This document shows positions 16,459 through 28,234 of a stretch of DNA of 64,000 nucleotides, one piece after another; within the stretch, counting starts at the first letter, position 1; each line of letters begins with the position of its first letter. The translations under genes and the position numbers were made by a program. The DNA is from Pseudobdellovibrio exovorus JSS. Its GTDB lineage: Bacteria; Bdellovibrionota; Bdellovibrionia; Bdellovibrionales; Bdellovibrionaceae. The notes beneath the pieces were generated by a model, which was given only the letters and a program-made list of their open reading frames with translations, did not search any database and was not told the origin of the DNA. The DNA lies in assembly GCF_000348725.1 (NCBI RefSeq), contig NC_020813.1, positions 1,302,001 to 1,366,000 on the forward strand. Reading direction: 5' to 3'.

Positions 16459-17187
16459 ATGATTAAAAATATTAATAAATCAGTATTCACTCTACTTCTT
16501 TTTATGTCAGGAATGGCATCAGCTCAGGGATTCGGCTTTGGATTTCCTGGTATGGTCGATCCAGATCATGTCCCTAAAGACCCATTTGTTAAAGAAACTC
16601 TGGCCGTGGAGGCATGCACTTTGTCTGCTCAAGGTAAACAGTGGCAATTAAATGAACCTGTCGGTAGTCATGAACGAGCCTTTGAGCTTTTGGAAATGAC
16701 GCCAACGGGTCGTGAGCTATTATCTCGGTTTCGCTCTTTGAATCATCAGCATCCACATGAGTTTATTCATCTTAATTACAACGTAAGACGCAGCTATGGC
16801 TTTTTACCAAAAGCCGGAGCTGTCTATATGTACGATGGTGAAAAACGTAAAATCTTTTTTGATCCCACAGATGATTTAGGTCTTGTGGCGATTATGTTGT
16901 CACACGAATTAATGCATGCAATTGATCCAGAAGTGCCAGAGGCATTTCATGAAGAAACGGCGGCTTACGGCAAAGTTAGCGCCGAAGAGTACTCGGAATT
17001 ACGTAAACGCAATAGCTTCCGTATCGAGCGCAGAGGCTTTGATATGCAAGACCGCGTATTGCCAGAACTACTACAGCTTTCAAGTTGTTATGGCAGCTTT
17101 ATTGAAAATCATCGCCGTTTAAATGGATTGAAACTCTTTAATCCGACGCCAGATTCCTATATTCGCGAAGCCTACGGCATCAATTAG
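16459..17187 (+). CDS. Secreted protein with HExxH metalloprotease motif
   Basis: 242 residues with a signal peptide ending at GMASAQ. A zinc-binding HExxH motif is at about residues 149-153 (SHELMHAID), followed by FHEETAAYG, where a Glu could be the third ligand. The sequence MLSHELMHAIDPEV is typical of zincin-type peptidases. No ribosome site is visible before the ATG; a TACAAT -10-like sequence lies about 15 bases upstream. The substrate is unknown. It could be a cell-wall or protein-degrading enzyme; only the motif supports this. Confidence 0.7.
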   Translation: MIKNINKSVFTLLLFMSGMASAQGFGFGFPGMVDPDHVPKDPFVKETLAVEACTLSAQGKQWQLNEPVGSHERAFELLEMTPTGRELLSRFRSLNHQHPHEFIHLNYNVRRSYGFLPKAGAVYMYDGEKRKIFFDPTDDLGLVAIMLSHELMHAIDPEVPEAFHEETAAYGKVSAEEYSELRKRNSFRIERRGFDMQDRVLPELLQLSSCYGSFIENHRRLNGLKLFNPTPDSYIREAYGIN

Positions 17188-22131: not shown

Positions 22132-22836
22132 ATGAGCCAAGCAGCTTTGAAGAAGCCCGTAGGAGTCTACATAATCGCCTTTTTATTTTTATTAGCTCCG
22201 ATAGGAAATATCCTGATCAGTTTTGCAGGATCCGGAGTTAAAAACTGGCACGATATAAACGTTTTAATTCCATTTATTCAAAGTATTCCGGCCTTGGATT
22301 GGATCTGGTTGGGTTTACTTTTTGTCACAGGAGTTTTGCTCTTTAGGCCACATAAGCTTTCATGGTCTATCGCCATTGGAACATTGCTGTTAGTGTTGTG
22401 TATCAATGCTTACCGCCTGTTTAATGTGGATGGGAACTCTATTGACCCTGCATTTTTAAAGATCTTTTCGGTCCTTGCTATTATCTGCACATTAAGCGTT
22501 TTGGTTATTGCCTCTTATTTCAGATTTCCTTACTTAGATCGTCGCGCAAACTGGTTTACCAATGTGAAGCGCTTTGATATTCGCACACCGGCAGTTGCCA
22601 ATGGTGTGAAAGCAACAACTGAGTCGATCTCTCATACGGGATGCCGATTATCCTTCGAGGAAACCAGTGAGTTTAAAAAAGGGGATATCTTAAAAGTTAA
22701 ATTCCTAGAAATTTCACAGGCGGAAGCGGATGCCGAAGTCGTAGAAAGATTGGAATTCGGCGCCAGAGTCGAGTTTAGACAACTCAGCGCAGAGTTTAAA
22801 CAAGACTTCGAGAGGTGGCTAAAGTCTAGAACTTAG
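22132..22836 (+). CDS. Membrane protein with C-terminal PilZ domain
   Basis: 234 residues. Four hydrophobic segments lie in residues 10-125, followed by a cytoplasmic PilZ-like domain (KRFDIRTPAVANGVKATTESIS). A partial RxxxR (KRFDIR) and an S-x-x-G (SISHTGC) are seen; the D/N of the D/N-x-S-x-x-G motif is replaced by Glu, so binding of cyclic di-GMP is not certain. GGAG precedes the ATG. The stop lies inside a TCTAGAAC-TTA-GTTCTAGA stem-loop (22825-22843). Confidence 0.8.
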   Translation: MSQAALKKPVGVYIIAFLFLLAPIGNILISFAGSGVKNWHDINVLIPFIQSIPALDWIWLGLLFVTGVLLFRPHKLSWSIAIGTLLLVLCINAYRLFNVDGNSIDPAFLKIFSVLAIICTLSVLVIASYFRFPYLDRRANWFTNVKRFDIRTPAVANGVKATTESISHTGCRLSFEETSEFKKGDILKVKFLEISQAEADAEVVERLEFGARVEFRQLSAEFKQDFERWLKSRT

Positions 22837-22843: not shown

Positions 22844-22984
22844 TACGCCAGAGCGCCTCAAAGTGAGACGTCGCATAATGATTTGTTTAAATGTCTCATA
22901 AAGTTAAATAGCTCTTGTACCGAAAAGATAATGTAAAAGAATTTTGTTTTTGATTACTTAAGTGTATCGGAATGAGGTCAAATG

Positions 22985-25450
22985 ATGGGGCAGTTCTATT
23001 TTAAAGCGATTAAAACTACAGCTATTGCGACAGCATGTTGGACGATGGTATTTTCTCCGGTGGCTCTCGGGCAGCAGGCAGAACGTATCTCTCGTGAAGA
23101 AGTCGCTCAATCTATTAAAGAGCTGAATTTAAATAGAAATACCACGCTGGATCACTTTTGGAAGAACATTAAGGCCTATACACCAGGTTATTCTTATAAA
23201 AATATCGACGATTTTGTTAAGCAAAATAAAAATGCAAAAATGCCTGAAGTTGAATTCAGTACTTTGCGCAATACTAGTGGCGAACAAATCCCAGTTATTC
23301 GTTTTACACAAAATGGAAAAACTCAAACCGTTCAGTTCTTTGGTGAAAAGAATAAGTGGGCGACATTTAATGGCGTTGTTTTAACTGAAAATGATTTGCA
23401 AGATATAGAGAAAATTTACTCTAAAATCGAGGCAAGTGATCCTAAGTATCGTCAAGAGGCGCAAGCTTATCGCGCTAGATCTTTAGCAGCTGCTCAACAG
23501 CCTAAGAATCAATTTGAAAAAGACATGTTACGTTTCCAAGGTTTCCCAAGAGTCACTCCATCTCTTTGGAAATCTATGACTAAAAATCAAAGAGCTGATT
23601 ACATCGTTAAGATGCGTATGATGCGTTTAAGTGCTAAACAAGTCGAAGCTGCATTCCAAAGAAAATCTGGCAGTGTTGCTCCAAAGAAAAACAAAGAGTC
23701 AGCGGTTATTGAAAATTTCTATCGGGCTATCTTTGGACAAGAGGCTTTTGCTCAAACAGCAGCGGGTGCATTTTCTGGACAGTGTGTAGTGGCTGGTTAT
23801 ATTGATGATGCTGATGGTTATGCTCCGGGAGTGAACTACCAAGGACAAAGAGCGCAAGTTTGTAATATCCAAAATGTTCTTCAAAATCCACGCTATCGTG
23901 AAGGTGGTGAGTTATCCTACGTGGCTGAAGCCGCAACAACTTGTGGTGCTTTAGACGTAAGAGCTAATCCAAGTCGTGAAGTTTCAAGTGATCGCGTTTA
24001 TGTTCCGTGTAATCCAGTTATCTATGGTTATCCAGGAGGTAATGGTTCGGGAGATACAGCTTCATCTGCAAAGGGAACACCTCTTTGTGTAAATAAAAAT
24101 GCTCGTGCCTTCCAAAACGTGACCACTTTCCCAGGTATTTGTGATCAAGGAAGTCGTTTAAATACATCTTCTTTTGATGTGACTTTATCTGAAGACGCAG
24201 CTGTTCGCCAAACTCAGTTACAAACAATTGAATCTGAACAGCGTGCAGAAGATTTCCGTCTGACAAAAGAGTACTTAGATGGCGTATTGGCTCATAAGGG
24301 TCATGGTGGTTTACAACAAATCCTAGATGGCGAATGGAATTTGGCAATCGATTCCGAGATGGTTCGTATCCAAAGCCAATTTGAAGCTGAAATCAACAGA
24401 GCCATTGGAATTTGCCGTGCTTCTTTGCGCGACAATGCGGGAAGACACGAAACCTACCAACAACAGGCCTGTGAACAGTTGCATCGTCGTTGGTTATTTA
24501 CTGAACGTGTGATAGCGCAATATCGTCAAAAAGCATGTCACGAAACAACGACTTATGTTGGTAAATACGACTCAGAAGAGTCTTCATTAAACAATCCAAA
24601 AACTGAGATCAATAAAACGCAAACTGACCAAGCAGGAACTAACCTATGTAAGTGTGAAGATGGTAGTCTTGTGAATTTTGGTCAAGCCTGCGGTGGTGCT
24701 ATTCCAACTCTTCCTCCAGTTGTAGTGACACCAACTTGTGAAGATCGTTATCCGGGAGCTTCTGGTTTAACTGAAGATTGCAAATGTTCTTCAGGTAAAG
24801 ATCCACAAGGGCCAGATTCAAAAGGTAAGTATAAATGTAGTAGTTCTTCAATTGTGCCAATAGCTTTAGCGGGTCTAGCGTTATTTGGTATCTTTGCCTT
24901 TGCGAAAAAGAAGAAGAAAAAGACACCTCCAACAGAGCCGCCTGTATTGTGTCCGGATGGATCACAAGCTCCAAATCGCAATGTGGAATTGTGTCCTAAG
25001 CCACCACAACAGTGTGTGTTACCTCAAGTAGGTACATATCCGAACTGTGCGTGTCCGAATGCTCAATCTTGCCCAACGGGATCAACTCATAATCCAAATA
25101 CGTGTGGTTGTGATCCAAATCCTCCGGTAAGTTGCCCAGGTATTAAAGTGGGTACGCCTCCAAATTGTGCGTGCCCGATTGAGGCCGTTAATGCATGTCC
25201 TAAACCATACAAGCTTTTTGATGCTAATACGTGTACATGTACAGATGTTCCACAGCCGCCAGAGTGTCCAGATGGAAGTAAGTTGGCACTTGGACAAAGT
25301 TTAACGTTGTGTCCGAAATGTCCAGATGGCACAACTTACATTACGACAGGACAAACTTGTCCAGTACAAAACGAGGGTGGATCAGGTAACAGCTGTCCAG
25401 CAGGACAAACTTGTAGCGGTGGATTGCCTCCTTCAGGAACAGGTAACTAG
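22985..25450 (+). CDS. Large secreted Cys-rich protein, tandem paralogue A
   Basis: 821 residues from ATG 22985 (GAGG 7 bases upstream; ATG 22982 is next best). Order: signal peptide ending near SPVALGQ; an N-terminal region (30-250); a conserved EAFAQ at about 252-256; a Cys-containing domain (about 260-540) with CNPVIYGYPG; a membrane segment (about 622-640, IVPIALAGLALFGIFAFA) followed by a poly-Lys run; and a tail of about 175 residues with 20 cysteines, in repeats such as VGTxPNCACP and CPDGS. It is 19 bases from its paralogue. I do not recognise the family. A surface or envelope protein is most likely. Confidence 0.8.
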   Translation: MGQFYFKAIKTTAIATACWTMVFSPVALGQQAERISREEVAQSIKELNLNRNTTLDHFWKNIKAYTPGYSYKNIDDFVKQNKNAKMPEVEFSTLRNTSGEQIPVIRFTQNGKTQTVQFFGEKNKWATFNGVVLTENDLQDIEKIYSKIEASDPKYRQEAQAYRARSLAAAQQPKNQFEKDMLRFQGFPRVTPSLWKSMTKNQRADYIVKMRMMRLSAKQVEAAFQRKSGSVAPKKNKESAVIENFYRAIFGQEAFAQTAAGAFSGQCVVAGYIDDADGYAPGVNYQGQRAQVCNIQNVLQNPRYREGGELSYVAEAATTCGALDVRANPSREVSSDRVYVPCNPVIYGYPGGNGSGDTASSAKGTPLCVNKNARAFQNVTTFPGICDQGSRLNTSSFDVTLSEDAAVRQTQLQTIESEQRAEDFRLTKEYLDGVLAHKGHGGLQQILDGEWNLAIDSEMVRIQSQFEAEINRAIGICRASLRDNAGRHETYQQQACEQLHRRWLFTERVIAQYRQKACHETTTYVGKYDSEESSLNNPKTEINKTQTDQAGTNLCKCEDGSLVNFGQACGGAIPTLPPVVVTPTCEDRYPGASGLTEDCKCSSGKDPQGPDSKGKYKCSSSSIVPIALAGLALFGIFAFAKKKKKKTPPTEPPVLCPDGSQAPNRNVELCPKPPQQCVLPQVGTYPNCACPNAQSCPTGSTHNPNTCGCDPNPPVSCPGIKVGTPPNCACPIEAVNACPKPYKLFDANTCTCTDVPQPPECPDGSKLALGQSLTLCPKCPDGTTYITTGQTCPVQNEGGSGNSCPAGQTCSGGLPPSGTGN

Positions 25451-25468
25451 TTAGTACTAGGAGTTAAG

Positions 25469-27655
25469 ATGAAAAGTGTTACGAATCTTATTAAGTGGAC
25501 TTTAATCTGGACATCAGCATGGTCAATGCTGATGTCTCCTTTGGCAGCTGCTCAACAGGTAAAAAAAATAACTCGCCAAGAGATGCAAGGTTACGTTAAT
25601 CAATTAGGACTTAATAAAAGTATCACTACCGGCGAGTTCTATCAGAAGAATAAACACTTATTTCCTCCGCGTATTCAAAAAGAAGTTGAAGCCGTTTTTA
25701 TGACATATAAAAACACGCCAATGCCTCGCTTTGAGGTTGCGACCTCTAAGAACACTCAAGGGGAAGAGGTTCCAGTTATTCGCGTGGCTTCAGCCGATGG
25801 GCAACTGATAAACATTCAGTGGTTGGGTGAAAGCGGTCGCCTGTTGAAGTTTCAAAATACATTCATCAGTGAAGTTGATGTTATTAACTATCAAGATATG
25901 ATCTATCGCGTACTCAATGGTGACGAAAAATTCCGTAAACAAATTCAATACACATCAAAACCTCAGGTTACAGCGTTAACAAATAAAGAAAAGTTCCGCC
26001 ATGTGGCTTATCCTGCAGTAAATGCTAACTCATGGAAGAATATGTCGGCTCGTCAAAAAGCAAGTTACATCGTAACGATGAGACAGCTATGGCAAGATGC
26101 GCGTGAAGTTTTAAAACAAAAAGAGCTGATAGATCAAAAGAAGAAAAAACGCGTTCAGATTTTTGAACAACAAAATCAGAGTTTCTTTACATTTTTGCAT
26201 TACCTAAATATCGGTGAAGCCTTTGCTGATAATATTGATGCCGCTCGAGGCGGAACTCGTAATTATGATCCAGGGCAATCTTGTATTATTGCAGGTTATG
26301 TAGCGGAACGGACGCAATCCGGTGGATGTAATTATCGTACAATTGATGCTCAATACAGCGGTGGCGGGCAGAACAGTATTTATGCTGCGGCTAAACAAGC
26401 TTGTAGTGGCGGACAAATTGCTTGTAATCCGTATGTTTTCGGTGCTCCGAACGGAAATCCTATCTGTGTAACACCAGATGCTAGTAGTAGCAGTGACTTT
26501 CAAAGAGCGACTCACTGGGATGGTCTTTGTGATTCACAAAGTAAATTAGCTACGAATAAAATTGATGTGGTTCGCGATACGTCCCGTACTCAAGGGCGTT
26601 TTGGTGCGGATAATATGTCGCAATCTGAATCTGAAAGAGTAAATGCGCTAAAATCTGATCAGGCGGCTAATAACTTCCAACTGACGGATCAGTACATCAC
26701 GGGCTTACTGAAATTCCGTGGTCTGACAACGGCAGATAGTATTTTCGGTCAAGGCGGGTCAATTGATAGTAACATGCTACAACAAGTGGTGTTGCTACGT
26801 GATGCCTTTAATAACGAAATTCGTACAGCACGTGCAAGCTGCCAAGTAGAATCAGATAATGATTTCGCACATGAGCGTAATTACTGGGAAGCCTGTGACA
26901 ATCTTTATCGCAGACAACTGTTTGTTAATGAATTCTTCGCAGCGAAATGTACTGATAATGGTGGTCAGTTAAATGAAGCCAACCTTATGTGTACATGTCC
27001 AGGAACTCCTGCAAGTGAAGTGACTCCAGGAACACGATGTGTGCCTGCTCAGGTGGCAACGGCGACTCCTCCACCTGTTGAAACTCCGGCTCCACCTCCA
27101 GCGGTGGAACCACCAGCAGCGCCTGCGGAACCGCCACCTCAAGCAAGAGAGCGCCAACGTGGTAATGAATGTAATTGGTTATGTAAACTTGGAAAAGTTG
27201 CTGTGCCAGTGCTGGTAACAGCAGGGGCGATTTATGCGATCACGAAATTGATCCCTAAAAATACAGTGGCAGGTCCACAGGCCGCTCCAGATTTATGCCC
27301 GAATGGACTTCCGGCTCCATGTCTTCAAACATGTACTCCGCCATTGGCATCTATTAATGGCCAGTGTGCATGTACGGCGTGTCCTCCGGGACAAAGTCGT
27401 GCGACAGGAACAACTTCTGATCCATGTCCAGTTTGTGCTACAACAGCGGCTCCAACAAATACTTACACATGTCCGGATCAATCTATCGTGACAGGTTCGA
27501 CATCAGAAGAAGCTTTGGCGAAATGTCCGTCATACTCATGTTGGAATGGACAAACGTATCAGAATCCAATGAACTGTCCTCCGGAATCAAGCACGACTGA
27601 AACAGGAACTTCAACTGGAACAGGATCTGGAAGCGGTAGTGGAACGGGTCGATAG
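25469..27655 (+). CDS. Large secreted Cys-rich protein, tandem paralogue B
   Basis: 728 residues, GGAG upstream. Same layout as paralogue A: signal peptide (SPLAAAQQ), N-terminal region (KITRQEMQGYVNQLGLN resembles A's ISREEVAQSIKELNLN), EAFAD at about 249-253, a Cys-containing domain (CNPYVFGAPNGNPIC), a Pro-rich linker (about 530-560), a membrane segment (about 577-597, VAVPVLVTAGAIYAITKLIP), then a tail with 12 cysteines (ACTACPPGQ, CPDQS) ending in Gly/Ser/Thr repeats. The sequences have diverged strongly outside the shared motifs, which implies an old duplication. Confidence 0.8.
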   Translation: MKSVTNLIKWTLIWTSAWSMLMSPLAAAQQVKKITRQEMQGYVNQLGLNKSITTGEFYQKNKHLFPPRIQKEVEAVFMTYKNTPMPRFEVATSKNTQGEEVPVIRVASADGQLINIQWLGESGRLLKFQNTFISEVDVINYQDMIYRVLNGDEKFRKQIQYTSKPQVTALTNKEKFRHVAYPAVNANSWKNMSARQKASYIVTMRQLWQDAREVLKQKELIDQKKKKRVQIFEQQNQSFFTFLHYLNIGEAFADNIDAARGGTRNYDPGQSCIIAGYVAERTQSGGCNYRTIDAQYSGGGQNSIYAAAKQACSGGQIACNPYVFGAPNGNPICVTPDASSSSDFQRATHWDGLCDSQSKLATNKIDVVRDTSRTQGRFGADNMSQSESERVNALKSDQAANNFQLTDQYITGLLKFRGLTTADSIFGQGGSIDSNMLQQVVLLRDAFNNEIRTARASCQVESDNDFAHERNYWEACDNLYRRQLFVNEFFAAKCTDNGGQLNEANLMCTCPGTPASEVTPGTRCVPAQVATATPPPVETPAPPPAVEPPAAPAEPPPQARERQRGNECNWLCKLGKVAVPVLVTAGAIYAITKLIPKNTVAGPQAAPDLCPNGLPAPCLQTCTPPLASINGQCACTACPPGQSRATGTTSDPCPVCATTAAPTNTYTCPDQSIVTGSTSEEALAKCPSYSCWNGQTYQNPMNCPPESSTTETGTSTGTGSGSGSGTGR

Positions 27656-27664
27656 GGTTCATGA

Positions 27665-28234
27665 ATGCTGAACCCAGAGATCATTCGACAAGATATACCT
27701 CAACGTCATCCAAATAAGTCTTATGACAAAATCTCTGGTCTTTTTAAAAAAGATCAGGGATTTGTTGATGCGGACACTGGCTTTCGCAGCGGGGCACGTA
27801 AAAAATCTGGCTTTAAATTAGCGTTATGGTCTTGGATGTCTGCCTCTATCGATACGCTCGTTCTTATTTCTTTGAGTTGTTTTAGTGTAGTTATTTTCTC
27901 TTTAATCATGAAAACACAAGCTCGCGAGTTTTTTAGAATTCTTGCAATTGATAATACAGCTGAATTGTTTGTCTTGGCCTTTCTTTTTAGTGCGTGGGGA
28001 TATTTGGTGATGATGCGTCTGTTTTTAGGTGCGTCTTTAGGAGAATGGACTTGTAGCTTGCGGTTAGGGCAACCAGCTCAAAGAGTTCAGAGGAACTACG
28101 CTTTAAAAGTGATTCTTAGAACAACAGTGGTCTTATTAACGGGTGTGATTGTGCTGCCTTTGCTGTCCTTAGTTTTTAAAAGGGATTTAGCTGGTAAGAT
28201 TTCCGGTTTACATGTTTATTCTTTAAATCCATGA
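27665..28234 (+). CDS. RDD-family membrane protein
   Basis: 189 residues. Residues 65-170 contain three hydrophobic segments typical of the RDD family (SASIDTLVLISLSCFSVVIF and later FVLAFLFSAWGYLVMMRLF). The first 60 residues are a polar N-terminal arm (PEIIRQDIPQRHPNKSYDKI). It begins 9 bases after the Cys-rich paralogue B and probably shares its transcript. RDD proteins have been linked to ion or fatty-acid handling, but the role here is unknown. Confidence 0.75.
   Translation: MLNPEIIRQDIPQRHPNKSYDKISGLFKKDQGFVDADTGFRSGARKKSGFKLALWSWMSASIDTLVLISLSCFSVVIFSLIMKTQAREFFRILAIDNTAELFVLAFLFSAWGYLVMMRLFLGASLGEWTCSLRLGQPAQRVQRNYALKVILRTTVVLLTGVIVLPLLSLVFKRDLAGKISGLHVYSLNP

Follow-up and report, generated by a model that had tools for sequence, protein, structure and literature searches.

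Paired Genes for Secreted-Type Proteins With One Hydrophobic Helix and a Cysteine-Rich Tail in Pseudobdellovibrio exovorus JSS

Results

The window (the whole stretch of 64,000 nucleotides of the P. exovorus JSS genome analyzed here) carries two long, adjacent genes, A and B, whose products share one layout of signal peptide, N-region, Cys domain, single hydrophobic helix and Cys-rich tail (Table 1), as a first-pass annotation of this DNA had proposed. Both open reading frames are present and the proteins are clearly paralogous, with 32% identity across residues 7-491 of B (E = 1.5e-44). Gene A has two ATGs at its start, at 22982 and 22985, the second of which the first-pass annotation took as its start, while gene B is preceded by an AGGAG-like ribosome site and separated from A by 18 bases, one fewer than the 19 given before. 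We recovered the reported 20 (A) and 12 (B) cysteines past the helix; the CPDG[ST] and PNCACP units described for both tails are literal only in A, whereas the units of B are looser, of C-x(n)-C-x-C and CxDG-like form. Similarly, the basic stretch noted after the membrane segment is evident in A, which has six lysines there, and amounts to a weak basic bias in B. Scans for terminators and promoters gave signals at or below chance. The next gene had been called RDD, an assignment that is weak for the window copy alone (17.2 bits against PF06271, below the cut-off of 24.1) and that is borne out by its orthologs, 6 of 15 of which match PF06271 at E = 0.001 or better (best E = 1e-8). Upstream of A, a membrane protein matches the PilZ domain (PF07238) at E = 6.8e-7, with 30.0 bits against a cut-off of 22.5.

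Table 1. Positions in the window of genes A and B, of their parts and of the two neighboring genes.
Feature	Position	Strand	Description and basis
PilZ membrane protein	22132..22836	+	C-terminal PilZ domain; 145 bases upstream of A
Gene A	22982..25450	+	822 aa; ORF, genus orthologs, tree
Gene A signal peptide	22982..23071	+	approximately residues 1-30; hydropathy; [TS]MxxSPVAxG motif conserved across family alignment
Gene A Cys domain	23765..24664	+	approximately residues 262-561; aligned to B domain, 8 invariant Cys
Gene A pre-helix Cys units, including C-x13-C-x-C	24647..24838	+	Cys-unit scan
Gene A hydrophobic helix	24851..24901	+	residues 624-640; hydropathy 2.49; followed by Lys642-647
Gene A Cys-rich tail	24923..25447	+	four C-x(8,14)-C-x-C units; ends in SGTGN
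Gene B	25469..27655	+	728 aa, paralog of A; ORF, AlphaFold model
Gene B Cys domain	26264..27013	+	residues 266-515; AlphaFold model
Gene B hydrophobic helix	27194..27250	+	residues 576-594; hydropathy and model
Gene B 12-Cys tail	27251..27652	+	ends in SGTGR
RDD-type membrane protein	27665..28234	+	189 aa; 9 bases past B; synteny and ortholog matches

The distribution of the family was surveyed by running a profile of its core against 66 genomes of the GTDB family, 61 of which were matched (51 of the 53 good ones, 18 of the 20 genera). Of the 14 genomes in the window's genus, 10 carry A and B side by side and the remaining four are incomplete or broken at contig ends; other genera have a single copy in the same place, with locus L077, which holds two family genes, as the main exception. 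Elsewhere in the class and phylum the matches were only partial, mostly to the Cys domain. Nearly all loci have an RDD-type gene directly downstream of the family gene, at a distance of -4 to +34 bases in 39 of 48, and a PilZ-type neighbor is often, not always, present. The widely kept order is ttcA, mscS, the PilZ-type gene, the family gene or genes, the RDD gene, a trmA-like gene and a gene for an M28-like peptidase, where ttcA, mscS, trmA and M28 are names read from the sequences and not profile matches. The locus is an old operon inherited vertically, not a mobile element. It had been asked whether the pair and the RDD gene co-occur only in predatory Bdellovibrionota; the A/B pair is indeed limited to one genus, while the single gene with its RDD neighbor is near-universal in a GTDB family with many uncultured members of unknown lifestyle, and the Cys domain alone extends to another class of the phylum. 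Two further observations concern these loci. PilZ-type genes code for about 165 aa in several relatives (L024:7303-7800, L026, L033, L034) and for 234-259 aa in others, and the short ones may be without a PilZ domain. Copy B of genome G008 (L027:10571-12721) has one in-frame TAA near its start, and the listed ORF is without a signal peptide; this is either a broken gene or a sequencing error.

Across the family, the conserved parts are the signal peptide, an N-domain, a globular domain with eight invariant cysteines and a Cys unit before the helix, followed by one Gly-rich hydrophobic helix, a tail that varies among lineages and a short C-terminal G-x-[RKQN] motif. On a quick tree of the core, with SH-aLRT support only, the copies of the window's genus form a single clade (support 99), which indicates that the A/B duplication is specific to this lineage. 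Within the clade the A and B copies are resolved from each other; the exceptions are L033 and L034, whose A cores cluster with the B cores even though their tails remain distinct, one of A type and the other of B type. (At L033:6219-10503 and L034:730-5016, the A core resembles the B core of its own genome.) Gene conversion limited to the core is the simplest reading, and under it there should be some reason for keeping the two tails distinct. Since orthologs outside the genus have short, mostly Pro-rich tails with 0-4 Cys, the Cys-rich tail is a genus-specific addition; the gene was duplicated in the window's genus, and both tails would have been extended by disulfide units like those found before the helix.

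The family had not been recognized from sequence, and we came to the same result: A, B and the other relatives were all without a match at the curated cut-offs of Pfam and NCBIfam, and neither search assigned the whole protein to a described family. Furthermore, no relative turned up when named genomes were scanned with the single sequence of A, a profile search against PDB sequences gave no match, and the tail alone as a query matched only tails of the window's genus. Searches of open-access article texts on the family, or on RDD or RCC1 in Bdellovibrio, returned nothing relevant, and no data on phenotype, localization or expression were found. The AlphaFold model of B has a pLDDT of 78.5 overall and of 92.2 over residues 266-515 (pTM 0.90), the segment within which the eight invariant cysteines fall. 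Fold searches with the whole model and with the domain gave no convincing PDB match, the best for the domain being a Foldseek E of 2.4 and, in a second search, a Z of 3.0 (rmsd 4.2, 95 aligned), although an absent fold match does not prove that the fold of the Cys domain is new.

The layout of these proteins poses a topological puzzle that the first-pass annotation rightly pointed out, as the charge bias and the Cys evidence conflict. When a signal peptide is cleaved and a single stop-transfer helix follows, the tail as a rule ends up in the cytoplasm. Both proteins would then be type I inner-membrane proteins, with a periplasmic N-part and a cytoplasmic tail whose cysteines bind metal or sense redox state, perhaps touching the cytoplasmic N-terminus of the RDD protein. 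Besides the signal peptide and the single helix, this reading is favored by the Lys-rich stretch past the helix in the A copies, by a neighboring gene that encodes a membrane protein and by the distribution of Lys and Arg, which average 3.8 in the 12 residues past the helix vs. 2.5 before it and are higher past it in 39 of 55 members. It fits the cysteines poorly, however. Their number in helix plus tail is even in all 55 members despite at least 17 changes on the tree (in two rows the helix start was manually shifted beyond a CxxxC pair, a change without effect on parity), and in the exported part past the signal peptide it is even in 50 of 55. Four-ligand zinc sites are at odds with counts such as 2, 10, 14 and 18; 24 of the 55 members have just two cysteines in helix plus tail, fewer than an ordinary zinc site needs, and no zinc-finger match was found up to E = 10. 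Moreover, the helix has matching Cys units on either side: C-x(8,14)-C-x-C was counted 24 times before it, vs. 1.7 in shuffles, and 46 times past it in 19 tails, vs. 4.9 expected and a shuffle maximum of 13. The units before the helix must be exported. The tails also contain few charged residues (10% and 8%, vs. a median of 23% in neighboring ORFs), and relative L091 (L091:2781-4709) has a collagen-like G-x-y tail past its helix, both of which argue against a cytoplasmic location.

The C-terminal motif provides another line of evidence. The G-x-[RKQN] ending recurs in relatives of two classes that have a signal peptide and the Cys domain and lack the helix, and is shared by only 2 of approximately 740 other genes of the fetched loci; it looks like a family-specific tag. 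Its presence in helix-less secreted proteins speaks, together with Cys parity, against a cytoplasmic tail. Such proteins of another class are encoded at L108:3946-6006, L109:3822-5813, L116:3985-5817 and other loci, and end in the family motif (e.g., DTSAVGIR). As for the two unrelated genes that fit it, one lies in the window at 16459-17187 and encodes a secreted protein of 242 aa with a HELMH motif (metallopeptidase-like), ending in YGIN. With regard to the machinery for disulfides, DsbB was not detected in the window's genome, which has a VKOR-type gene scoring above the cut-off outside the window (G000:C1:1288060-1288452, 388 aa open frame), and therefore disulfide formation in the envelope is plausible.

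Of the two options put forward initially for the tail, the evidence thus favors export over cytoplasmic metal binding, and we consider an exported tail somewhat more probable than a cytoplasmic one; the type I arrangement keeps an appreciable, if clearly smaller, share of the probability. Several points count against export. Even Cys counts would also be expected from duplication of a paired-Cys unit in any compartment, recognition of the C-terminal motif might take place in the cytoplasm ahead of export, and the collagen-like tail is a single case. Above all, the passage of the tail beyond the hydrophobic helix is left unexplained by the export model.

If the helix were placed in the outer membrane, as a single span or an oligomeric bundle, with the tail displayed on the cell surface, a single helix and an exported tail would be reconciled. 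Gly-rich helices suit packing, and family paralogs adjoin surface-type lipoproteins and adhesin-like genes; nevertheless, the helix is hydrophobic enough to be retained in the inner membrane and single-helix outer-membrane spans are rare, which makes this arrangement quite improbable. The remaining suggestion, that the segment acts as a sorting signal, finds no support here, with 133-181 residues following the helix and no match to the C-terminal sorting families. Cleavage near the helix, releasing the tail or the ectodomain, meets the same lack of matches to sorting-signal families and a C-terminal motif that is conserved along with the core; the tail varies independently of the core, which is no direct support, and we regard cleavage as very improbable.

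Discussion

Our preferred reading, to which we give a probability of roughly 0.45, is that A and B are duplicated copies of an envelope scaffold or stalk found throughout Bdellovibrionaceae, with exported, disulfide-bonded tails and an RDD partner. The protein would be exported by Sec and stapled by disulfides, presumably with the help of the VKOR-type oxidase encoded in the genome, and its helix would anchor it in a membrane, possibly together with the RDD protein. Its tail would most likely lie outside the cytoplasm, with its cysteines in disulfide bonds. That the RDD gene is the conserved partner of A and B we infer from gene order only. A role for the family can be suggested from the context of its paralogs, which lie directly downstream of RCC1/Calx-beta proteins at L039, L073, L081, L092 and L093 and beside Fn3/Ig and TSP1/VWA proteins at L080 and L095. 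Since paralogs adjoin RCC1/Calx-beta proteins with lipobox-like starts (ending in QNC in two RCC1 proteins), the arrangement suggests that the family serves surface proteins, by holding surface components or helping to assemble them. The two-gene unit of a lipobox-like RCC1/Calx-beta gene followed by a family paralog is recurrent (L073:3618-6632, L081:3161-6205, L039, L092, L093). A search for RCC1 in the window's own genome gave no match, but its control gave none either, so this does not establish that RCC1 is missing there. It is from the conserved RDD neighbor and these surface-type contexts that we propose a membrane-anchored envelope protein, serving as scaffold or stalk with a tail stapled by disulfides and acting jointly with the RDD protein.

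A bolder version of the exported-tail reading would have a family of the predator lineage with an unmatched, disulfide-locked domain, in which the parts on either side of the single helix are both outside the cytoplasm and the C-terminal G-x-R tag is a signal for export or assembly. The helix might then, for instance, span the outer membrane or be handled by the RDD partner. Taken as a whole, we find this version unlikely. In any case, the family gene and its RDD neighbor come close to being a core trait of the GTDB family of Bdellovibrio and are unnamed by curated models, and in the genus of the epibiotic predator B. exovorus the gene has been duplicated and its tails remodeled. Should the tails be exported, the family would contradict the textbook view of a signal peptide plus one helix and would offer a ready test case for envelope assembly in predators.

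Among known systems, the RDD family (PF06271), whose function is poorly known, bears on the downstream partner only, the likeness being that of small multi-helix membrane proteins. The collagen-like adhesins SclA, SclB and Lcl resemble L091 in its collagen-like repeat tail and the family in plan, with an anchored core and a repetitive stalk. However, neither LPXTG nor another anchor is present, the repeats of A and B are Cys units and not G-x-y, and the collagen-like matches of L091 are far below family cut-offs. The GlyGly-CTERM, PEP-CTERM and MYXO-CTERM proteins have a hydrophobic segment followed by basic residues, as do A and B, but the helix of A and B is not at the extreme C-terminus and no NCBIfam match was found. 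The tails of the window are without a Pfam match even at E = 10, and a sub-threshold match of one ortholog tail to CXCXC (E = 0.13) was the only one of its kind; nevertheless, the C-x(n)-C-x-C units, in their spacing and their Pro/Gly/Thr-rich composition, recall extracellular disulfide-rich repeats of the EGF, TIL and CXCXC type. The libraries searched appear to hold no description of the family, while envelope proteins that are anchored and rich in disulfides are already known as a broad kind.
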